From Hymenobacter sp. CRA2 (GTDB lineage Bacteria > Bacteroidota > Bacteroidia > Cytophagales > Hymenobacteraceae): a stretch of DNA of 32,434 nt. A model generated the notes under the pieces. The model saw only the letters and a program-made list of their open reading frames with translations. It searched no databases and was not told the DNA's origin. Below are positions 184 to 11,814 of this stretch, in pieces. Where the stretch lies: the NCBI RefSeq assembly GCF_002007105.1, contig NZ_MVBC01000025.1:1-32434 (forward strand). Direction: 5' to 3'. The position numbers were made by a program, and so were the translations under genes. How positions within the stretch are numbered: the first letter of the stretch is position 1; each line of letters opens with the position of its first letter.

Positions 184-990
184 TTGGCCAAGCTGGAAAA
201 TTCCTCTTCGCAGTTTAATTTGATAAGCCAGCTTTCCTCTATGAATGAAGATCAGCTTGACAATCTGTCTGGCCTTCTTGATAAATGGAATATTGATGCT
301 GCAAAAATTGTTTTGGATGAACTTGAATTTAGATTAAAGCTTTTAGAACAGCTCCGAATAAAGGTCGTAAAAGAAAGTACAGAAGAAGTCGGGGAGTTGC
401 AACCTCTATTCCACAGGGGCCTCTGGATTTTTGGGCCCGAGTATGAAACTATTGAATATACATCGAATGAAACTATGACTTCTGTTATTCAAAAACTATT
501 TGGAGGCAGCATGGACGGAACGAATATTAGGCCGGATTTTGCCATCTTGCCTGATGGTACCGTGGGGCTATATGCCTATCCTAAATATGATTCTAATGGA
601 GGTGAAGCCGGTTTTGACCGGCTTACTATTGTTGAACTCAAGCGTCCAGGAGTGCCTATTGGAAAAGAAGAAAAAAACCAAGCCTGGAAATATGTGAAAG
701 AACTTTTGGAAAAAGGATTAATTACTGACACCAACGTAACATGCTTCGTGTTAGGAGCAACGTTAGATAAATATGAATCAGGAGTAACAACAGAACACAA
801 TGGCTTAGTTACTATAATACCTATGACATATAATACTGTAGTTATGCGTGCGAAGAGTAGATTGCTAAAGCTGCATGAGAGAGTTAAAGGTGCTCCATTC
901 TTGGCAGAGGTGAGAATGGATGAGTTTTTACTAGAAAAGGCTCAAACAGAGTTGGCATTGAAACAAGCAACAATAAAAAAGGCGCCATAA
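184..990 (+). CDS. Shedu-like (DUF4263-type) PD-(D/E)XK nuclease-domain protein, probably 5'-truncated by the IS
   Basis: This 268-aa frame starts at TTG 184; the first ATG is at 241. Residues 1-65 are predicted helical. From about residue 68 there is a nuclease-like core: E71 in ELQPLF, the stretch GLWIFGPEYE (79-88), D118 in RPDFA, E151-x-K153 in IVELKRP, and Q166 in NQAWKYVKELL. The D...ExK...Q arrangement is that of PD-(D/E)XK enzymes. The wording resembles the C-terminal domain of SduA (Shedu anti-phage) and of longer ATPase-nuclease proteins. The frame is open upstream to the IS end at about 118 and reads as plausible protein (YIQIDCPS), with no ATG there. I infer that the original gene began to the left and was cut by the IS, so the stump may be non-functional. 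It is much more AT-rich than the neighbouring chromosome, consistent with transfer. The stop codon sits in the loop of a strong terminator. Confidence 0.7.
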   Translation: MAKLENSSSQFNLISQLSSMNEDQLDNLSGLLDKWNIDAAKIVLDELEFRLKLLEQLRIKVVKESTEEVGELQPLFHRGLWIFGPEYETIEYTSNETMTSVIQKLFGGSMDGTNIRPDFAILPDGTVGLYAYPKYDSNGGEAGFDRLTIVELKRPGVPIGKEEKNQAWKYVKELLEKGLITDTNVTCFVLGATLDKYESGVTTEHNGLVTIIPMTYNTVVMRAKSRLLKLHERVKGAPFLAEVRMDEFLLEKAQTELALKQATIKKAP

Positions 991-1297: not shown

Positions 1298-3667
1298 TTA
1301 CGCGCTGCAAGCTTCGCAGGCGTCGGGGTTATCCAGGGAGCAGGCCATGGCGGCGGCTTGGTCGTACACCGGTTCCAGCGTTTCGGCGGCTTGCTTCTGC
1401 ACGGTGAACTTGATGGCGTCGGCAGCGGCTTTGGTGCGCAGGTAGTACATGCCGGTCTTCAGGCCGCGCTTCCAGGCGTGGAAGTGCATCGAAGTCAGCT
1501 TGCCGAAGTTGGGGTTCTGCACGTGCAGGTTCAGGCTCTGGCTCTGGCAGATGTAAGCCCCGCGGTCGGCGGCCATGTCGATGATGGTGCGCTGCGAGAT
1601 TTCCCAGACCGTCTTGTAGAGGTCCTTGATGTGCTGCGGAATGCTGGGAATGTTCTGCACCGAGCCGTTGGCGGCGATGATGTCCTGCTTCATCTGCTCG
1701 TTCCACAGGCCCAGCTTCACCAGGTCCTTGAGCAGGTGCTTGTTCACCACCATGAACTCCCCGCTGAGCACGCGGCGCACGTAGATGTTGGAGGTGTAGG
1801 GCTCAAACGACTCGTTGTTGCCCAGGATCTGCGCCGTCGAGGCGGTGGGCATGGGCGCCACCAGCAGCGAGTTGCGCACACCGTGCTCCATTACTTCGGC
1901 GCGCAGCGCGTCCCAGTCCCAGCGGCCCGACTCGGGCGTGACGCCCCACATGTCGAACTGGAACTGGCCCTTGCTCATGGGCGAGCCGGGGAAGGTCTCG
2001 TAGTGGCCGTCGCGCTTGGCGAGGTCCTTGGAGGCCGTCACGGCGGCGAAGTAGATGGTCTCGAAGATGTCCTTGTTCAGGCCGGCCGCCTCTTCGCTCT
2101 CGAAGGGCATGCGCAGCGCAATGAAGGTATCGGCCAGGCCCTGCACGCCCAGGCCGATGGGGCGGTGGCGCTTGTTGCTGCGCTCGGCCTCGGGCACGGG
2201 GTAGTAGTTGATGTCGATAACCTTGTTCAGGTTCTTGGTGGCGTGGTAGGTCACCTCGAACAGGCGCTGGTGGTCGAAGTAGGGCTTGCCGTCCTTCTCC
2301 GATACGTAGCGCGGCAGGGCCAGGGAGGCCAGGTTGCAGACGGCAATTTCGTCGGCATCCGTGTACTCCATAATCTCGGTGCACAGGTTCGAGGACTTGA
2401 TGGTGCCCAGGTTCTGCTGGTTGGACTTGCGGTTGGCCGCGTCCTTAAACAGCATGTAGGGCGTGCCCGTCTCGGTCTGGCTTTCCAGGATGGCAAACCA
2501 CAGGTCCTGCGCCTTGATGGTTTTGCGGCCGCGGCCTTCGCGCTCGTACTTCTGGTACAGGCGCTCGAAGTCCTCGCCCCAGCTCGTATCGAGGCCCGGG
2601 CACTCGTGGGGGCACATCAGCGTCCAGTCGCCGTTCTGCTCCACCCGCTTCATGAACAGGTCGTTGATCCAGAGGGCGTAGAACAGGTCGCGGGCGCGGT
2701 TTTCCTCCTTGCCGTGGTTTTTCTTCAGGTCCAGGAAGTCGATGATGTCGGCGTGCCAGGGCTCGATGTAGATGGCAAAGGCGCCCTTGCGCTTGCCGCC
2801 GCCCTGGTCTACGTAGCGGGCCGTGTCGTTGAACACTTTCAGCATGGGCACGAGGCCGTTGGAGGTGCCGTTGGTGCCCTTGATGTAGCTACCGGTGGCG
2901 CGCACGTTGTGCACGGCCAGCCCGATGCCGCCCGCCGATTGCGAAATCAGCGCGCAGTTCTTCAGCGTGTCGTAGATGCCCTCGATGCTGTCGTCCTTCA
3001 TCGTCAGCAGGAAGCACGACGAGAGCTGCGGCTTGGGCGTGCCGGCGTTGAAGAGGGTAGGGGTAGCGTGGGTAAACCAGCGCTCCGACATCAGGTTGTA
3101 GGTCTCGATGGCCTGCTCGATGTCGTCCTTGTGAATGCCCACGGCCACGCGCATCAGCATGTGCTGGGGGCGTTCCACCACCTTGCCGTCGAGGCGCAGC
3201 AGGTAGGAGCGCTCCAGCGTCTTGAAGCCGAAGTAGTCGTAGTTGTAGTCCCGGTCGTAGATGATGGCCGAGTCGAGCTGGGCAGCGTGCTTGTGCACCA
3301 CTTCCCACACGTCGCGGGCTACCAGCGAGGCGTTGTCGCCGTTTTTGGGGTCCTCGTAGGTGTAGAGTCGCTTCATCGTGGAGGAGAAGGACTTCGAGGT
3401 CACCTTGTGCAGGTTGCTCACCGCGATGCGGGCCGCGAGAATCGCGTAATCCGGGTGCTTGGTGGTGAGCGAGGCGGCGGTTTCGGCCGCCAGGTTATCG
3501 AGCTCCACGGTGGTCACGCCGTCGTAAATCCCGTCGATGACCTTTTTGGCCACTTCGATGGGGGAGACGAAGAGCATGTTCAGCCCGTAGCACAGTTTCT
3601 CGATGCGAGCCGTGACTTTATCGAACTTGACGGACTCGCGCCGGCCGTCGCGTTTAATTACCAGCAT
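1298..3667 (-). CDS. nrdA: Ribonucleoside-diphosphate reductase, class Ia, alpha (large) subunit
   Basis: NrdA reduces ribonucleoside diphosphates to deoxy forms together with the radical-bearing NrdB. The 789-aa protein has an N-terminal ATP-cone (about 1-90, starting [13 protein letters not shown]), the [19 protein letters not shown] segment with C218, the active-site loop N427-L-C429-T-E431, and partner cysteine C444. The radical-transfer tyrosine pair is Y741-Y742 in GMYYLRT. A C-terminal C784-x-x-C787 pair (CEAC) would be re-reduced by thioredoxin or glutaredoxin. Length and motifs are complete. nrdB is not adjacent but lies about 6.7 kb away on the same strand. No strong Bacteroidota -7 site was found upstream, but a pair of TTnTCCACA boxes lies at 3838-3892. 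No terminator precedes the small gene at 1278-1012. Confidence 0.97.
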
Positions 3668-3837
3668 AGGCGGGATGAGGTTGGAGTAAAAAGGTTGGAG
3701 GTGTGTGGGTTGCGGCAGCGCGGGCTGGGCAGATGGGTCGGAGCCAAAGCTCCACCATTTCCTGCCCGGCCCGCGCCGTTACTGTCCGGAATATACTCGG
3801 CCGCGTTGTTTGCCTGAATCAGTTCAGAGCCGGAAAG

Positions 3838-3892
3838 TTTTCCACAATCGGTTCCCGCTACCGTGCGGGCCGATTTTTAGACGTTATCCACA
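3838..3892. promoter_or_regulatory. Paired DnaA-box-like sites upstream of nrdA
   Basis: TTTTCCACA (3838-3846) and TTATCCACA (3884-3892) lie in the same orientation, 46 bp start to start, about 170-225 bp upstream of the nrdA start. TTATCCACA is the classical DnaA box. The first box is preceded by GGAAAG, forming a small palindrome GGAAA-g-TTTTCC. A closely related pair precedes nrdB at 11651-11690. A role in regulation is inferred. Apart from these sites and the terminator at 4036-4066, nothing recognisable was seen in the gap 3668-4088. Confidence 0.5.
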
Positions 3893-4088: not shown

Positions 4089-5015
4089 CTACTTCTTGGG
4101 CGTGTACTCGAAGCCGAAGTTCTTGGCGTACTCGGCCAGCGGCCCCAGCCCCACCGCGGCCCGCCGCTCATCCACGTGCGCTTCGTCCTCGATGGGCGCA
4201 AACTCCGGCTTGCCCGTGCTGGGGTTGCCCACCACCTGGCTGCCGTAGATCTGCGACTTGCCGCGGCGCAGCAGCACGCGGTCCTGCAGCAGCGCGAAGT
4301 TGCCCGGGGCAATGTCGCCGCGGGCTGCCGCCTGCTTCAACACGTCGAAGTACTTCTCCTGCACCGCCAGGTCGGCGTGCTGGATGACCAGGAAGGCGGT
4401 GAGGCTGCCCATGCGGCCCACCAGGGCTTTGCCCGGCCAGCCGTACTGGTCGATGATTTCGGTGACGCGCTTGGTGTTGCGCTCGTCGATGGCGCGCATC
4501 TCGCTCATCAGCGCGTCCCACTGCGGCGACTTTTGCCCGAAATTCCGCTGCACCGAATCGATTTTGCCGCGCACGCCCTGGTCCGTGGCGTAGATTTCCT
4601 GCAGCTCCTTTTTCAGCGGCTGGTTCAGCTTGGCCTCGGCTTTAGCCACGGTGGCGTCCAGCTTTGCCAGCATCACCGGCCAGCGTTTATCGGTGCGCAG
4701 GCTGGTCAGGTCCGTGTCTTGCTTCACGTGGGCCACGTTGTCCCAGCCTGCTCCGGTGGCCCGATCCAAGTAGCGAAAGGCTTTGTCTTTGTCGCCGGCC
4801 AGGGCCCAGCTGCAAGCCGCGTTGTAGTAGTCGGTGCTGGTGGGCTTGCCGGCTTTGTCCTTGAAGGCCTGGTCGAATAGCTTGCCCGATTCGGCGTAGT
4901 TCTTGGCCGAGTAGGCACCCATGGCCTGCCGATTCAGGGCGCTGAAGGTGGCCTGGCAGTAGGCTAGTGGCGCAGTCAGCAGCAGCGCCGCGCCGAGGAG
5001 TAGGGCTTTGAGCAT
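4089..5015 (-). CDS. Exported DUF6624-domain protein with TPR-like N-terminal region
   Basis: The 308-aa product has a signal peptide at about 1-20 (MLKALLLGAALLLTAPLAYC). Next comes a TPR-like helical segment at about 25-95 (GAYSAKNYAESGKLFDQAF, then YYNAACSWALAGDKDKAF). The C-terminal domain at about 130-295 has landmarks of DUF6624: GWP at 192-194, QHAD at 212-215, DR at 245-246 followed by QIYGSQ, and VDERR at 281-285 before GLGPL. The biochemical role of DUF6624 is unknown to me. A cysteine sits at position 20, but LAYC is a weak lipobox, so a secreted or periplasmic protein is more likely than a lipoprotein. The gene is monocistronic, with its own terminator and a separate terminator upstream for the CotH-like gene. 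Confidence 0.8.
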   Translation of the reverse strand: MLKALLLGAALLLTAPLAYCQATFSALNRQAMGAYSAKNYAESGKLFDQAFKDKAGKPTSTDYYNAACSWALAGDKDKAFRYLDRATGAGWDNVAHVKQDTDLTSLRTDKRWPVMLAKLDATVAKAEAKLNQPLKKELQEIYATDQGVRGKIDSVQRNFGQKSPQWDALMSEMRAIDERNTKRVTEIIDQYGWPGKALVGRMGSLTAFLVIQHADLAVQEKYFDVLKQAAARGDIAPGNFALLQDRVLLRRGKSQIYGSQVVGNPSTGKPEFAPIEDEAHVDERRAAVGLGPLAEYAKNFGFEYTPKK

Positions 5016-5096
5016 GGCAAAAGTGGTATAGGGGTTAGTGCATGTCCCAACGACGCCTCCTTAGCTATAGCGTTGCAAGCGCGCCGCCGATGGTCA

Positions 5097-5130
5097 CAAA
5101 AAAGCCCGCGGCCGTTGGGGCGCGGGCTTT
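5097..5130 (-). terminator. Terminator for the CotH-like gene
   Basis: AAAGCCCGCG (5101-5110) and CGCGGGCTTT (5121-5130) form a 10-bp stem with a 10-nt loop, followed by a T run in the minus-strand direction (5098-5103). It lies 20 nt beyond the stop of the gene at 5151-6866. Confidence 0.88.
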
Positions 5131-5150
5131 TCTGAGGTTGCTAACGAAGC

Positions 5151-6866
5151 TTAGTTAATCACCAGCTTCTCCGTAGCTACGGCCGTGGCCGTTTTCAGCG
5201 TCACCACATACACGCCCTTGCGCAGCTGACCGATGTCGAGGCGGTTTTGCTTGCCCGTCAGCGTGGTTTGCTGCACCAAGCGGCCGCTCAGGTCCCGGAT
5301 GCTCAGCTGGCAGGTGCCGGCCGCGCCGGTTTCCACCATCAGGTAGTCATTGGCGGGATTGGGGTAGAGTTTCAGCAGGCCATCGGTCTGGGTTTTTACG
5401 CTGGTCACGGCCGCGCACGACTGGTTGAAGGCGTTGTCGAGGTAGGTCAGGCGGTGGCGCAGCCAGCCCGTCATGTAAGCCAGCTGCGTAGTGTCGTGCT
5501 GGTAGTCGCCCCAGGCCAGCTGTTCCCGGGCGTAGGCGTTGTTGGCGTTGAGGTAGTCGTACTCGGCCCGGAACTTGGCCATGATGTGCTGCTCGGTGAT
5601 GACGCTGGCGCGCAGGGCGTTCCAGCGGGTCTGCAGCGCCTCGCGGAAGCCCCCCGCCGAGCAGTCCCGGGTCAGGCGGCTGTACATGCCGTTGGTTAGG
5701 ATATCGTCCACGTTGCCGGTGTTGCCGCCGGTGTAGTCCGTGCCGAACACGCCGTCCAGGTCCCAGGGCACGTAGTAGTAGGGCTCGTTGCGCTTGTACT
5801 TGGCGATATAGATGTTCTTGCCGGTGTTGTCGGTGGCCCGCAGCAGGTTCAGGAACAGGTAATAGTCCACGGCGTTGCCGAGGTGGAACTGCTGCTTGTA
5901 GTTGGTCATAAAGTCGGCTTCGGTGCTGTTCTGCACGAAGCTGACGAAGGTGTAGAGGTTGGTCCAGTCGATTTGCTCCTCCGGGTGCTTGTACTCGAAG
6001 CCGCCCCAGGTTTCGCTGTTGTTGTCGACGGGCGGCAGGCCCGTGAAGGTGACGGCTCCGCCCCAGTCGCTGCCCTTGTACAGCTCCCCGAGGATGCCGT
6101 TGTTGTACTTCTTCAGCTTCAGCTGCTTGCGGTCCACCCGCTCGCTGAGGGCGTAGATGCCGCGGTACTCACCGTTGACGAACAGCTCCACGTACTCCAT
6201 GGCAATGCCGTTTTTGGCATCAGGCTCCAGGTTTTTGTAGTAGATCTGGTGGATTTCCTGCCACAGCGCATTCGATACCTTGCTGCGGAAGCGCAGCGGC
6301 TCGTTGTACAGCGCCTGCAGGTTGTACTTGTTGTCGGTGCGCATACCCAGCAGCGTCACGTCGCGCGAGGCCGTGCCCACGGTGTCGTTCCAGAAGCTCA
6401 GCTCATACGACTTCTTGGGGAAGTTTTGGGAGTAACCGCCCCGGAACTCCACGCCCAGGTTTGACTGCACCTGCTGGCCCGAGGCCTCCACCAGCTGAAA
6501 CTGCGCGTACACGCTGGGCGCATCCATGATGGTATAGCGCGTATCGATATGGGCTACGGGCAGCTGCGTAAAGAACAGCTTGTAGGCGGCATTGCCGCTG
6601 CGCACCTGGTAAGAGGAATCGGTGCGCAGCGTAGTGACGGGCTGGGCAAAGGTGTACACGCTGTCCAGCGCCAGGTGTCCTTTGCGGTCCGGGTTGCCAT
6701 TAAGAGCGGTGATGCTCTGGTTGATTACGATAATCTTATTGGCCCGATCTACGTGGTAAAAACGCGGGGCAACGGTCAACGTGTCGCCGGCAAACGTGCT
6801 GCGCGCAGAAATAAATAGCAGCAGACAAAGCAAACAACTGACGTGATTAGTAATGGTTTTTCGCAT
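5151..6866 (-). CDS. CotH-kinase-family secreted protein with T9SS type A sorting domain
   Basis: This 571-aa exported protein has a signal peptide at about 1-26 ending in STFA. The CotH-type domain (about 110-430) shows FRGGYSQNFPKKSYEL (141-156), YRGIYALSERVDRK (234-247), ATDNTGKN (344-351) and the acidic PWDLDGVFG motif (367-375). These match CotH spore-coat kinase relatives, a protein-kinase-like fold known from Bacillus CotH. In Bacteroidota the substrate is unknown. The last 74 residues (498-571, starting LKLYPNPAND and ending KLVIN) are a T9SS type A C-terminal sorting domain, implying export across the outer membrane and surface attachment or release. Its own terminator follows. No clear promoter was found upstream. 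Confidence 0.9.
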   Translation of the reverse strand: MRKTITNHVSCLLCLLLFISARSTFAGDTLTVAPRFYHVDRANKIIVINQSITALNGNPDRKGHLALDSVYTFAQPVTTLRTDSSYQVRSGNAAYKLFFTQLPVAHIDTRYTIMDAPSVYAQFQLVEASGQQVQSNLGVEFRGGYSQNFPKKSYELSFWNDTVGTASRDVTLLGMRTDNKYNLQALYNEPLRFRSKVSNALWQEIHQIYYKNLEPDAKNGIAMEYVELFVNGEYRGIYALSERVDRKQLKLKKYNNGILGELYKGSDWGGAVTFTGLPPVDNNSETWGGFEYKHPEEQIDWTNLYTFVSFVQNSTEADFMTNYKQQFHLGNAVDYYLFLNLLRATDNTGKNIYIAKYKRNEPYYYVPWDLDGVFGTDYTGGNTGNVDDILTNGMYSRLTRDCSAGGFREALQTRWNALRASVITEQHIMAKFRAEYDYLNANNAYAREQLAWGDYQHDTTQLAYMTGWLRHRLTYLDNAFNQSCAAVTSVKTQTDGLLKLYPNPANDYLMVETGAAGTCQLSIRDLSGRLVQQTTLTGKQNRLDIGQLRKGVYVVTLKTATAVATEKLVIN

Positions 6867-7358
6867 GTGTAATTTGTGGATGATTATTATTCAGCGGTGA
6901 GCTACATTTAGCTGTTGAGGTTGCATGGCAGCCGAAAAAACGAGGCGCGCGAATCGGCGCCTGCCTTGCGTCCAGCAAGCAGCAGTACTCAGCGGGGCCT
7001 GAAAGGCAGGGAGGTTAGGGGCGCCAGCAGCGTTTACCAGCGGTATCGGCAGCGCTTATTGCCAAGGGCGACAGGTGCTGTGCCGCCGCACATCGGGGGG
7101 TATTATGAGAAAGAAATTTGAAGCGATATTTGGGAAAAACGTAATTGAGGTTTGCTCACAGCAGTGTAAATTAGAGGCTTAAATAGCCGTAGGTATTGCG
7201 TTTATCCGCCGTGTGCACAGAGTCGATTGCAGAAAGCCCGGATAACGCCACTGTGGGCGTTTGTAAAACGGGGCGCGAAATACGCATATAAAAAACAATA
7301 ATGGGTGGAGTATAGTAGATATTCTTCATTCAATGCCATTTCTCGCCCCTTCAGTACC
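6867..7358. other. Divergent intergenic region without a gene
   Basis: This 490-bp, relatively AT-rich gap separates the divergent CotH-like and metallophosphoesterase genes, so it must hold both promoters. I found no exact TAnnTTTG site in either direction and no convincing small gene. The short open frame at 6915-7121 has no recognisable content. Confidence 0.6.
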
Positions 7359-8489
7359 ATGCTTGGTCTTTCCTGCCGCCGCTGGCAGCATACGTTTTGC
7401 TTCCTGCTGCTCTGCCTGGGCGGCCTCACTGTGCCCGCCGCGGCGCAGCGCTTTGCCGCCATCGGCGACTACGGCTATGCCGGGCCGGCCGAGCGTGACG
7501 TAGCCAACCTGGTCAAGAGCTGGGACCCGGAGTTTATCATCACCCTCGGCGACAACAACTACGAGCTGGGCGACTCCACTACTATCGACCAGAACGTGGG
7601 GCAGTACTACCACGAGTACATCGGCAACTACCACGGGCGCTACGGGCCCAGCGCCAGCACCAACCGCTTCTTCCCCGTTCCTGGCAACCACGACTACTAC
7701 ACCAACAACGGTGAGCCGTACCGCCGCTACTTCACCCTGCCCGGCAACGGCCGCTACTACGACTTTGTGCGCGACAACGTGCACTTCTTTGCCGTCAACA
7801 GCGACCCGCTGGAGCCCGATGGCATTACCGCTGGGTCGGTGCAGGGGCGTTGGCTGCAAGCTGCCCTGGCCGCCGCGCCCGAGCCGTGGAAAGTAGTATA
7901 CCTGCACCACGCACCCTACTCCTCGGGCTGGCACGGCAACACCGCCGCCCTGCAGTGGCCCTTCAAGCAGTGGGGTGCTTCAGTAGTGCTGGCCGGCCAC
8001 GACCACCACTACGAGCGGCTGGTCGTCGATGATTTCCCCTACTTCATCAACGGGCTCGGCGGGCGCAGCCTGTACCGCCTGCGCACGCCCCTGCCCGAAA
8101 GCAAGTTCAGCTTCACGGGCGAATACGGCGCGATGCTGCTCAACGCCAGCCCCGACAGCCTGACGCTGCAGTTCTTCACCCGCAACCGCACACTGATTGA
8201 CCGCTACACCCTGTTTCGGGCGGGTAGCGCTACGCCCACGCTGTACCCGCTCTTCCCCAATCCAGTGCAGGAAACGGCCACGGTAGAGTTTTTTCTGCCC
8301 GCGGCCACCACCGTGGAACTGCGGGTGCTCAACGCACTAGGGCAGGAAATAGCCCGGCTGCGGGAGGGCGAGCAGGCCCCGGGCTGGCACCGCGCAAGCT
8401 GGCCCCGCAACGGCCTGGCCGCGGGCGTGTATTACGTGCAGCTGCGCGGCAGCGGCTTTGCGCGGGTAGTGCGGGCCGTGCTATTGTAA
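7359..8489 (+). CDS. Secreted metallophosphoesterase (acid-phosphatase-like) with T9SS sorting domain
   Basis: The frame extends up to a GTG at 7305, but the signal peptide begins at ATG 7359 (MLGLSCRRWQ..., about 1-29, ending PAAA), giving 376 aa. The calcineurin-like di-metal site is complete: GDYG with D37, GDNNY with D65 and N66, GNHD with N110 and H111, HH at 183-184, and GHDHHYER with H214 and H216. The order and spacing resemble tartrate-resistant/purple acid phosphatases. It probably hydrolyses phosphomonoesters outside the cell. The C-terminal 75 or so residues (LYPLFPNPVQE to the end, with GLAAGVYYVQL) form a T9SS type A sorting domain. It converges on the beta-propeller gene, with which it shares a 26-bp inverted repeat. 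Confidence 0.92.
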   Translation: MLGLSCRRWQHTFCFLLLCLGGLTVPAAAQRFAAIGDYGYAGPAERDVANLVKSWDPEFIITLGDNNYELGDSTTIDQNVGQYYHEYIGNYHGRYGPSASTNRFFPVPGNHDYYTNNGEPYRRYFTLPGNGRYYDFVRDNVHFFAVNSDPLEPDGITAGSVQGRWLQAALAAAPEPWKVVYLHHAPYSSGWHGNTAALQWPFKQWGASVVLAGHDHHYERLVVDDFPYFINGLGGRSLYRLRTPLPESKFSFTGEYGAMLLNASPDSLTLQFFTRNRTLIDRYTLFRAGSATPTLYPLFPNPVQETATVEFFLPAATTVELRVLNALGQEIARLREGEQAPGWHRASWPRNGLAAGVYYVQLRGSGFARVVRAVLL

Positions 8490-8514
8490 GCCTGCAGCGC
8501 TTACCGGCCGTATT

Positions 8515-8570
8515 GCCGCTTAACACCACGGGCGGGCCTGCTAGCAGGTCCGCCCGTGGTGTTAAGCGGC
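8515..8570. terminator. Large inverted repeat between convergent genes
   Basis: Bases 8515-8540 and 8545-8570 form a 26-bp stem with one mismatch around the loop CTAG. It sits between two convergent stop codons (8489 and 8587), so it probably ends transcription in both directions. No long T run follows on either strand. Confidence 0.75.
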
Positions 8571-8586
8571 TAAAAGAAACACGAGG

Positions 8587-10308
8587 CTATTCCACCAGTA
8601 GGCGGCCCGCAGCGGTAGCTCCATTGGCGGCCACGGCCTGCACATGGTACACCCCCTGCGCCAGCCCGGCTACCGACAGCGGTAGCTCAGTGGCAGTAGC
8701 GGCGTAGGGTACAGTCTGCACCATGCGCCCTAGTGCGTCGCGGACGGTCAGGTGCCCGGCCTCACGGCCGGCCGGCAGCCGCACTGTGGCCAGTTGGCGG
8801 GCCGGGCTGGGGTACACTGCCAGCGGCGCCAGCTGCCGGCCCGACCGCGTACCAGTGGTAACACTGCTCAGCCGGGCAAAAAAGGTTTCTTGGTTGCCCC
8901 GGCTGGTCGGCATGGCGAGGTTGCCAAAGCCAATAAGTCCAGCCAGGGTGCCAGCCACGTAGAGCTGGCCCGCACTGTTGAGGGCCAATCCTTGCGGTGC
9001 GGGGTACACGGCGCCTACGTCGTTGCTCTGCTGCGTCCAGCGTACGGTGCCCTGGGGCGTAAACGAGAATACTGCCAGCGCCGGATTCAGCGTATTGTTG
9101 GTAGGCACCGCCGACACTGTGACCAGACCCATGCCCACGGCACGAAGAAAGCGGCTGCTGAAGTAGCTATTGCCAAACTCATCGATAGCAACGCTACCGG
9201 GGTAGCTCATGGTGCCCGTAGCAAGGTGGTGCCAGTCGGAGGTGCCCTGAGCTGTGAAATGCACCAGATAGGCTTTGAGGTAGTTGCCCACCACGGAGCC
9301 GTCCTCTACGAAGCCGCCTACGGCCACATTGCCGGCATTATCGATAGCCAGACTACGAGCGTTATCGAGGCCAAGGCTGCGTATGGACGTCGGCATAAGG
9401 CTTACCCAGGTAGGTGAGCCCCCCGCACTGTACTTGGCCGCAAAGCCGTCGAGGTTGTTGGGCGTGCCGCTTAGGGTAGTGCCGCCAATGGTCACGGGGC
9501 CTTCTATACCACCGGCCACGTAGGCATTGCCTGCCGCATCGGCAGCTAGGGCCCCGGCCCAGTCCTCGCCGGTTCCCCCTTCGCTGCGGGCCCAGACTAG
9601 CCCGGCCTGGGCGTTGTATTTGGCAATGAAAAAGTCTTGAGTGTTTCTGCTGCTGCCATCCGCCGTGGCGCCCAGTACGCTGGTCAGGGTGGTGCCGCCC
9701 ATGTCCACAGTCCCAGTATAGGTCCCGGCTACCAGAATGTTGCCATTCCCATCCACGCCGAGACCCGCGGGGCTGCTGGTGTTGTAGCCACTGCTGGCAC
9801 CGCTGCGGCCGATGGCCTGCAGCCAGACCGGATTACCCTGCGTGTCCAGTTTCGCCAGAAAGCTGCTCCCCAGGGGCTCGGTCAGCGTGCTCGTTCCCAA
9901 GGCCATGGTTGCCGCGAAGCTACCGGTCAGGTACACGTTGCCGGTCGCGTCCAGCGCCAGGGCCGTCACTCCTGCCGGCTGAGCCGCCTCCTGCACGTTG
10001 CGCGCCCACAGCAGCGTGCCGGCATCGTTGTATTTGGCCACATAAGCATTGGGCTCGGTCGAGGTAAGGGTGCTGCCCCCTAGTTCGATGGTGCCCTGAT
10101 AGCTGTTGGTCACGTACACGTTGCCCGCGCCGTCGGTTTTGAGGGCGCCACCCGAATTGGTAGGCAGGGCCCTGGTGGTGGTGCTAGTGGTAGTAGTGCG
10201 GCGCACCTGTTGCCAAACAGGGCTGCTCTGCGCTTGGCTTAGTAGGGGCAATGCAGCGCTGGCGGCTAATAGTAGGGCACGACGGCTCAGGAGGGTAAAA
10301 TCAGGCAT
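8587..10308 (-). CDS. Secreted SBBP-type beta-propeller repeat protein with T9SS sorting domain
   Basis: The start is placed at ATG 10308 (MPDFTLLSRRALLL), giving 573 aa with a signal peptide of about 27 residues. The longer frame from 10371 would run through the nrdB terminator and is rejected. The mature part has about seven degenerate repeats of roughly 50-65 residues. Each has a D-x-x-G-N-x-Y-V-[AT]-G core (for example AGNVYVTNSYQGT, TGNVYLTGSF, AGNAYVAGGIEG), then a glycine-rich strand and an [AFY]-x-A-K-Y or F-x-A-K-L element with a following W. This matches SBBP (Bacteroidota beta-propeller) repeats. The last 80 or so residues (LAVYPSPARQ to GRLLVE) form a T9SS type A sorting domain. 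It is probably a surface or secreted scaffold protein; no enzymatic role is visible. Confidence 0.88.
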   Translation of the reverse strand: MPDFTLLSRRALLLAASAALPLLSQAQSSPVWQQVRRTTTTSTTTRALPTNSGGALKTDGAGNVYVTNSYQGTIELGGSTLTSTEPNAYVAKYNDAGTLLWARNVQEAAQPAGVTALALDATGNVYLTGSFAATMALGTSTLTEPLGSSFLAKLDTQGNPVWLQAIGRSGASSGYNTSSPAGLGVDGNGNILVAGTYTGTVDMGGTTLTSVLGATADGSSRNTQDFFIAKYNAQAGLVWARSEGGTGEDWAGALAADAAGNAYVAGGIEGPVTIGGTTLSGTPNNLDGFAAKYSAGGSPTWVSLMPTSIRSLGLDNARSLAIDNAGNVAVGGFVEDGSVVGNYLKAYLVHFTAQGTSDWHHLATGTMSYPGSVAIDEFGNSYFSSRFLRAVGMGLVTVSAVPTNNTLNPALAVFSFTPQGTVRWTQQSNDVGAVYPAPQGLALNSAGQLYVAGTLAGLIGFGNLAMPTSRGNQETFFARLSSVTTGTRSGRQLAPLAVYPSPARQLATVRLPAGREAGHLTVRDALGRMVQTVPYAATATELPLSVAGLAQGVYHVQAVAANGATAAGRLLVE

Positions 10309-10350
10309 ACACAACGGGAAAAGAACAATAGATCGGCAGGTAATGATAAA

Positions 10351-10379
10351 CAAAAAGCCCGGCGCTTGCACGCCGGGCT
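10351..10379 (-). terminator. nrdB terminator
   Basis: AGCCCGGCG (10356-10364) pairs with CGCCGGGCT (10371-10379) over a 6-nt loop. On the minus strand the hairpin is followed by a T run (10352-10356). It lies 24 nt past the nrdB stop and separates nrdB from the downstream propeller gene. Confidence 0.9.
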
Positions 10380-10402: not shown

Positions 10403-11365
10403 TTAAAAGTCCTCGTCGAGCGAGAAGACGTTCTGGTCGCGGTCCGACATCACGCCGGCTTTCTGGTACTCGGCCACGCGCTTCTCGAAGAAGTTGGTCT
10501 TGCCCTGCAGCGAAATCATCTCCATGAAGTCGAAGGGGTTCGAGGCATTGTAGATTTTGCGGTAGCCCAGCGAGACGAGCAGGCGGTCGGCCACAAACTC
10601 AATGTACTGCGACATAGCCTGCGCATTCATGCCAATGAGGTTCACCGGCAGCGCGTCGGTCACAAACTCCTGCTCGATGCTCACCGCGTCGCGGATGATG
10701 TCGTGCACGCGGCTCTCGGGCAGCTTGTTCTGCAGGTACCGCTCGTAGAGCAGGCAGGCGAAGTCGCAGTGCAGGCCTTCGTCACGGCTGATCAGCTCGT
10801 TGCTGAATGTGAGGCCCGGCATCAGGCCGCGCTTCTTCAGCCAGAAGATGGAGCAGAACGAGCCGGAGAAGAAGATGCCTTCTACGGCGGCAAAGGCAAT
10901 CAGGCGCTCGGTGAAGTTCTCGGAGTTGATCCACTTCAGCGCCCACTGGCCCTTTTTGGTCACCGCCGGCACGGTCTCCAACGCGTTGAAGAGGTAATCC
11001 TTCTGCTTGGGGTCCTTGATGTAGGTATCAATCAGCAGCGAGTAGGTCTCTGAGTGGATGTTTTCCATCATCACCTGGAAGCCGTAGAAGCAGCGCGCCT
11101 CGGGCATCTGCACCTCCTGCATGAAGTTGACGGCCAGGTTCTCGTTCACGATGCCGTCGGAGGCGGCGAAGAAGGCCAGCACGTGCGAGATGAAGTGCCG
11201 CTCGTTGTCGTTGAGGTTGTCCCAGTCTTTCTGGTCCTGCGACAGGTCGATTTCCTCCGCCGTCCAGAAGGAGGCTTCAGCTTTCTTGTACATCTGCCAC
11301 ACGTCGTCGTTCTGAATCGGGAAGAGGACGAAGCGGTTGGGGTTTTCTACCAGGAGCGGTTCCAT
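10403..11365 (-). CDS. nrdB: Ribonucleoside-diphosphate reductase, class Ia, beta (radical) subunit
   Basis: NrdB carries the di-iron/tyrosyl radical that NrdA needs. The start is at ATG 11365 ([16 protein letters not shown]), giving 320 aa; the frame is open upstream to 11476, but that part ([10 protein letters not shown]...) does not look like protein. Metal ligands D70, E101, H104, E162, E196 and H199 and radical tyrosine Y108 (in ENIHSETY) are all present with the expected spacing. The C-terminus FSLDEDF is the conserved tail that docks into the alpha subunit. The compact size and the spacing between E101 and E162 are closer to the short, eukaryote-like R2 type than to E. coli NrdB. A terminator follows. 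The 480-bp leader shared with divergent rplU carries TTnTCCACA boxes like those before nrdA. Confidence 0.97.
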
Positions 11366-11504: not shown

Positions 11505-11512
11505 CAAAGATA
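11505..11512 (-). promoter_or_regulatory. Candidate -7 promoter element for nrdB
   Basis: The minus strand reads TATCTTTG here, an exact match to the Bacteroidota -7 pattern TAnnTTTG, about 140 nt upstream of the nrdB start. No TTTG was found at the expected -33 distance, so support is partial. Confidence 0.4.
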
Positions 11513-11650: not shown

Positions 11651-11690
11651 TTTTCCACATTCTGTCTGTTGACAATTCAAGTTGTCCACA
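11651..11690. promoter_or_regulatory. Paired DnaA-box-like sites upstream of nrdB
   Basis: TTTTCCACA (11651-11659) and TTGTCCACA (11682-11690) lie in the same orientation, 31 bp start to start, about 285-325 bp upstream of nrdB. The first sits in GGAAAAGTTTTCCACA, sharing the 13-nt AAAGTTTTCCACA with the nrdA upstream site. They also lie 150-200 bp upstream of divergent rplU, but the likeness to the nrdA region makes nrdB the likelier target. Confidence 0.5.
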
Positions 11691-11782: not shown

Positions 11783-11814
11783 TTTGGTAATGTCAAAACC
11801 ACCTCGTACTTTTG
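11783..11814 (+). promoter_or_regulatory. rplU-rpmA promoter
   Basis: TTTG (11783-11786), a 20-nt spacer, then TACTTTTG (11807-11814) match the Bacteroidota -33/-7 promoter (TTTG, 19-20 nt, TAnnTTTG). It ends 32 bases before the rplU start, giving a short leader. Confidence 0.8.

Follow-up and report, generated by a model that had tools for sequence, protein, structure and literature searches.

How can the two subunits of one enzyme be expressed in concert when their genes lie apart? The window (the whole stretch of DNA analysed here, 32,434 nucleotides from Hymenobacter sp. CRA2) raises this question for class I ribonucleotide reductase (RNR). The large subunit, with its ATP-cone, is encoded by nrdA (1298–3667, minus strand; Pfam PF02867, PF00317 and PF03477), and the small subunit by nrdB (10403–11365, minus strand; PF00268). 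They are 6.7 kb apart, and the stretch between them (window 4089–10371) contains a DUF6624 gene and three genes matching Por_Secre_tail: a CotH kinase, a metallophosphatase and an SBBP-type propeller, the latter two assignments falling below the Pfam cut-off. Divergent from nrdB is rplU, encoding ribosomal protein L21 (11847–12155, plus strand; PF00829), and relatives have this same divergent neighbour. The nrdB–nrdA distance ranges in relatives from ~0.2 kb to ~160 kb, with the genes on different contigs in three. The original prediction was that paired boxes upstream of each gene could form a DnaA-linked signal for co-regulation. Elsewhere in the window, positions 1–2000 have a G+C content of 0.487, below the remainder, an open reading frame at the left end (184–990, plus strand) has no Pfam match at E 0.001, and Rfam at gathering thresholds finds nothing in the window besides one tRNA.

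Boxes upstream of nrdA and nrdB

All four predicted boxes are exact and lie where they were placed, on the plus strand. Upstream of nrdA are a promoter-proximal DnaA box, TTTTCCACA (3838–3846; TGTGGAAAA on the nrdA coding strand), and a second box, TTATCCACA (3884–3892). Upstream of nrdB are TTTTCCACA (11651–11659), nearest to nrdB, and TTGTCCACA (11682–11690), nearest to rplU. The nrdB pair holds as predicted but is incomplete as a description, as alignment and direct reading reveal a third, middle inverted box between the two (TGTTGACAA, 11667–11675, plus strand), degenerate in the window with one mismatch to TGTGGANAA. The nrdA pair is real in the window, but recurs in only 7 of 54 distinct regions, all seven from the window's genus; the eighth member of that genus has one nrdA box, so that the second box is present in 7/8 there and in no other region compared. 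A GGAAA...TTTCC palindrome, predicted as a shared feature of both regions, is in the window but in only 4/54 distinct nrdA and 1/65 distinct nrdB regions, and was dropped as a signal because it is not conserved.

The boxes themselves are widely kept. We compared upstream regions from Hymenobacter (g5) and the window's genus (g1, which includes Solirubrum puertoriconensis and Hymenobacter sp. 15J16-1T3B), deduplicated by their last 250 bases. Boxes occur in 64 of 65 distinct nrdB regions (at least two in 64, three in 44). Of 54 distinct nrdA regions, 52 carry one or more exact boxes, and in 49 of these 52 the gene-nearest box is TGTGGAAAA. The regions lacking an exact box are L034 and L037 for nrdA and L252, from a metagenome-assembled genome, for nrdB. 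The surrounding DNA has largely diverged while the boxes persist, as judged from alignments of 28 nrdA regions and, among the matches listed, 34 nrdB regions.

Boxes are conserved, then, and rare elsewhere, rather than unconserved or equally common in random intergenic DNA. An even sample of the Hymenobacter genome G097 contains 10 per 400 kb (reversed control, 10), equivalent to ~0.004–0.006 boxes per 170–250 bp; adding 20 further stretches picked around nrdB gives 31 boxes per 800 kb, against 17 for the reversed control. Within the window, TTNTCCACA occurs five times against 0.70 expected, a count reached by 0 of 100 shuffles. Across the 5.88 Mb of the window's genome, TTDTCCACA is not enriched (64 sites versus 59 for the reversed control); pairs of sites no more than 60 bp apart number four, with ~0.04 expected, half of them being the pairs at nrdA and nrdB. 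The other two are inverted, one upstream of a Proton_antipo_M gene (L121:2816-2857, contig C7) and one between a colicin V production gene and pdxJ (L122:2866-2924, contig C11), and are possible further DnaA targets.

The presence of a separate nrdA box goes with gene arrangement. In four other genera nrdB adjoins nrdA (40 loci), and there an nrdB box lies within ~800 bp in 39/40 loci and within 260 bp in 29/40 loci of this type, while the 900 bp upstream of nrdA contain a box in 0/40. Since nrdA is boxed in Hymenobacter and the window's genus but not in the genera with adjoining genes, nrdA has its own box where the genes moved apart. An order-wide sample (nrdB found in 136 of 148 genomes; 40 loci from outside the family compared) gave a box within 700 bp of nrdB in 10/40 regions of non-family Cytophagales; all ten come from the 17 loci at which nrdA adjoins nrdB, against 0/23 otherwise. 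In Pontibacter, 15 of 17 rplU–nrdB regions (L084–L100) carry a pair of inverted boxes at a separation of exactly 105 bp, ~ten helical turns. Degenerate boxes also occur near the Pontibacter nrdB promoter, among the 9 regions listed of the 17 aligned.

The nrdB array and its spacing to two putative promoters

The two nrdB boxes of the window are the outer members of an array of the form TGTGGANAA-6-TTNTCCACA-7-TGTGGANAA, and nrdB in Hymenobacter and the window's genus has this array, or an altered form of it, upstream. Searching 120 family genomes returned 27 exact arrays in 27 genomes (26/43 Hymenobacter, 1/8 from the window's genus and 0/69 others), all of them upstream of nrdB when coordinates were compared by eye; the reversed control returned 0. 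The exact array is missing from 17/43 Hymenobacter genomes and, in the window's genus, from 7/8, among them the window's own genome; those of them that were aligned have one or more boxes changed or shifted. The middle box is exact in 35 of 40 aligned regions. The start codons of rplU and nrdB are 437–531 bp apart in these two genera.

Three conserved elements suggest where the promoters lie. A TAT[AC]TTTG column is conserved upstream of nrdB among the matches listed in the 34-region alignment (TATCTTTG in the window, 11505–11512, minus strand), and a TAnnTTCC column is kept upstream of nrdA in the 28-region alignment (TATATTCC, 3788–3795, minus strand; a variant of TAnnTTTG). On the other side of the array, TAnnTTTG lies 38–42 bp before the rplU ATG in 64/64 regions (TACTTTTG in the window, 11807–11814, plus strand, from alignment and direct reading). 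All three resemble the Bacteroidetes −7 element, and we treat them as putative −7 elements of three presumed promoters. Many sequences of the nrdB alignment have an A-rich tract (AAAAATTAAC..AAAAAA) between the array and the putative nrdB −7 element.

The nrdA box keeps a near-constant distance to its putative −7 element, 39 bp in 40 regions and 42 bp in six, including the window; the remaining 6 of 52 have no TAnnTTCC. The array boxes sit further away, 94–194 bp from the putative nrdB and rplU elements, at distances that cluster. Across 64 regions, the gap from array to nrdB element takes the values 94, 107, 116–118, 126, 136–140, 147–148, 150–151, 159–163, 172–173 and 194 bp, and that from array to rplU element 115–117, 125, 127, 129, 137–139, 148–149 and 160–164 bp. 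Each is a distinct nrdB region that extends 450 or more bases upstream and has no more than six mismatches to the array; all come from Hymenobacter or the window's genus, with the boxless L252 outside the set. The pattern was first spotted in 40 regions, and the 24 examined afterwards conform.

P values against uniform distances ignore relatedness, and by that measure the control leader too is significant, with all values and with distinct values; the claim of phasing accordingly rests on independent pairs. We drew these on a tree of rplU and nrdB, took gap differences of at least 5 bp and scored those falling no more than 2 bp from a multiple of 11. On the rplU side 12 of 12 independent changes qualify (binomial P = 8e-5 versus 5/11), and on the nrdB side 7 of 8 (P = 0.019 versus 5/11); the nrdB leader, which varies from 96 to 150 and served as an internal control, gives 4 of 12 (P = 0.87). 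Other thresholds returned the same counts for both spacers, and randomising the order of pairs gave mean fractions of 0.95 (rplU side), 0.89 (nrdB side) and 0.28 (control leader). The best joint period is 11.0 bp, with 11.6 on the rplU side and 10.4 on the nrdB side, a disagreement between sides that counts against the DnaA explanation proposed below. Both spacers change in steps of ~11 bp, which is helical phasing. For comparison, fitted repeats for lac looping in vivo are given as 10.95–11.60 bp per turn (PMC1762422). Such phasing is expected if array-bound DnaA contacts promoter complexes by looping.

DnaA as candidate regulator, and the alternatives

The domain IV motif GGRDH[ST]TV, which contacts the DnaA box, is intact in all 8 DnaA proteins examined, out of 11 loci. 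The box words are DnaA boxes, matching or nearly matching the consensus as predicted; that of E. coli is TTATCCACA (PMC11317965). The same word, TTTTCCACA, occurs ~100 bp before dnaA in 5/5 genomes of Hymenobacter and the window's genus with upstream DNA examined (L144:1371-1379; also L139, L145, L146 and L147), directly beside a putative −7 element, CAnnTTTG, one mismatch from TAnnTTTG; this arrangement would be suited to autorepression. The dnaA box is missing in the Pontibacter and Rufibacter genomes examined (G009, G017). By the E. coli ChIP-seq account, DnaA prefers two boxes 2–3 bp apart (PMC11317965), a rule shown for E. coli that we do not take as defining in other phyla. The array, with its spacings of 6 and 7 bp and alternating orientation, does not fit that pair rule; this spacing and the mostly single nrdA box, set against the E. 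coli preference, count against DnaA. So do the regions and genomes without an exact box or array, the low share of boxed nrdB regions beyond the family, and the dnaA box missing in Pontibacter and Rufibacter.

The usual NrdR boxes had been reported as not seen, and the gene itself is equally elusive: a search for nrdR (TIGR00244) gave no match in 58 relatives, the window's own genome included, with 9 of 14 control genomes positive. We do not count these genes as members of an NrdR regulon, since no nrdR gene was found (0/58) and the boxes differ in sequence.

Taken together, conservation, rarity elsewhere, the dnaA box, the failure to find NrdR and a putative oriC dense in near-matches support the predicted DnaA-linked co-regulation of the split RNR genes, with DnaA as the presumed binder. 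We think it likely that DnaA binds these boxes and thereby controls RNR transcription in Hymenobacteraceae, including by looping from the array. At nrdA, the single box just upstream of the promoter would allow direct contact between DnaA and RNA polymerase, and its position leads us to favour activation. At nrdB, the three-box array would nucleate a DnaA oligomer able to reach the promoters on either side of it, those of nrdB and rplU, via short DNA loops; we propose that spacer lengths shift in whole turns of the helix because DnaA loops to both. The two subunits of the split RNR would then answer to the same DnaA level or nucleotide state, and dNTP supply would be coupled to replication initiation. 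It is the phasing, and it alone, that points to looping, and the need of so short a loop for bending help counts against it. Possible, though not quite probable in our estimation, is a broader arrangement in which a single DnaA complex at the array forms alternative loops to the two divergent promoters and sets both nrdB and the ribosomal operon of rplU, so that dNTP supply, and perhaps ribosome synthesis with it, would be tied to the state of DnaA; the helical constraint would here be seen as the 11-bp quantised evolution of both spacers.

Could the array serve replication rather than transcription? Three clustered boxes might make an origin or part of one, and nrdB lies inside the origin interval defined by rRNA strand switches in 10 of 11 genomes, read by hand (22 genomes searched, 18 with matches, 11 with rRNA on both strands); in G135 it lies outside. 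GC skew in G097, which is weak, has its minimum at 225–450 kb in an even sample of 20 stretches, close to nrdB at 204 kb, but with 40 stretches of 20 kb, unevenly sampled, the minimum moves to ~4.48 Mb–0.04 Mb, ~0.2 Mb from nrdB and nearer a candidate at 48–49 kb. That candidate is an intergenic region away from dnaA, syntenic in G097, G077, G117 and the window's genome, with 7, 11, 9 and 8 matches to TTATCCACA at no more than one mismatch (shuffle means 0.08–0.27), against 3 (G097) and 2 (window) in the rplU–nrdB region; these counts cover the tested regions, and exact-box positions were mapped in five genomes. We regard this dense syntenic cluster (L172:8034-8998, G097:C1 ~48.0–49.0 kb; L128:2992-3923 in the window's own genome) as likelier than the array to be oriC, and the array as probably not the origin because the denser cluster lies elsewhere; that it is an origin, or part of one, seems to us very improbable. 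G097 and G077 also have box pairs with a 16-bp separation, in an open reading frame and in a convergent gap; these look incidental.

Less far-fetched, yet still unlikely, is a datA- or DARS-like site for DnaA titration or nucleotide exchange that by chance lies between rplU and nrdB and acts in the timing of initiation, not in transcription. Such a site would suit an array of three ordered boxes set mid-intergenically, far from both promoters, and ~0.13–0.32 Mb from the putative oriC in three complete genomes (G077, G097 and G117). It would not need to hold helical phase with two promoters, however, and nrdA's own box at near-constant promoter spacing indicates that boxes follow the RNR genes. 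We consider it about equally doubtful that the phased boxes are bound by another regulator recognising TGTGGAWAA-like words. DnaA is the presumed binder on sequence grounds, and in many sequences a longer stretch of context, TGTGGAWAACTT, is common to nrdA and nrdB; but the boxes spell the DnaA-box consensus, which is found again at dnaA and the putative oriC, the domain IV signature is intact, and no alternative candidate turned up, in work that included no systematic search for one. That common box words have been conserved through relatedness alone is suggested by the genome total of 64 sites against 59 for the reversed control, but the persistence of boxes amid diverged DNA, the specificity of the array to nrdB and the phasing with its internal control leave chance a negligible probability.

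Relation to known systems

If DnaA does act here, another phylum would join those with DnaA–RNR control, suggesting a coupling that is ancient or repeatedly evolved, and the replication initiator would be linked to a ribosomal-protein promoter, that of rplU. The case bears on how bacteria lacking NrdR tie RNR expression to replication, and the quantised spacers would preserve, in natural sequences, the trace of a constraint imposed by looping. Among the open-access titles and abstract beginnings listed under the name Bacteroidetes, none describes DnaA control of RNR in that phylum.

The closest parallel is E. coli nrdAB, described in PMC8203912 as having three DnaA boxes and as being activated when DnaA-ATP is low, or by DnaA-ADP, and repressed when DnaA-ATP is high. 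In both systems, class Ia RNR genes are preceded by DnaA boxes. Unlike in E. coli, the genes here lie apart and each has boxes of its own, and NrdR was not found; the nrdB array, moreover, lies 94–194 bp upstream of the −7 element, alternates in orientation and is phased to two divergent promoters. RNR genes of Caulobacter (nrdB) and B. subtilis are likewise named or proposed as DnaA targets (PMC8203912, PMC3193534); those bacteria belong to phyla other than Bacteroidota, and the excerpts of these sources used here mention no phased array. NrdR, as outlined in PMC12176259, co-regulates RNR operons via paired upstream sites, a likeness to the present boxes that ends with their sequence and with the nrdR gene, found in none of the 58 relatives. 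With looping by the lac repressor, as described in PMC1762422, the proposed system shares action from a distance and a periodicity of ~11 bp in vivo; for lac this was shown with a built series of spacings, whereas here it is deduced from how spacers vary naturally between species, and the protein that would form the loop is taken to be DnaA.
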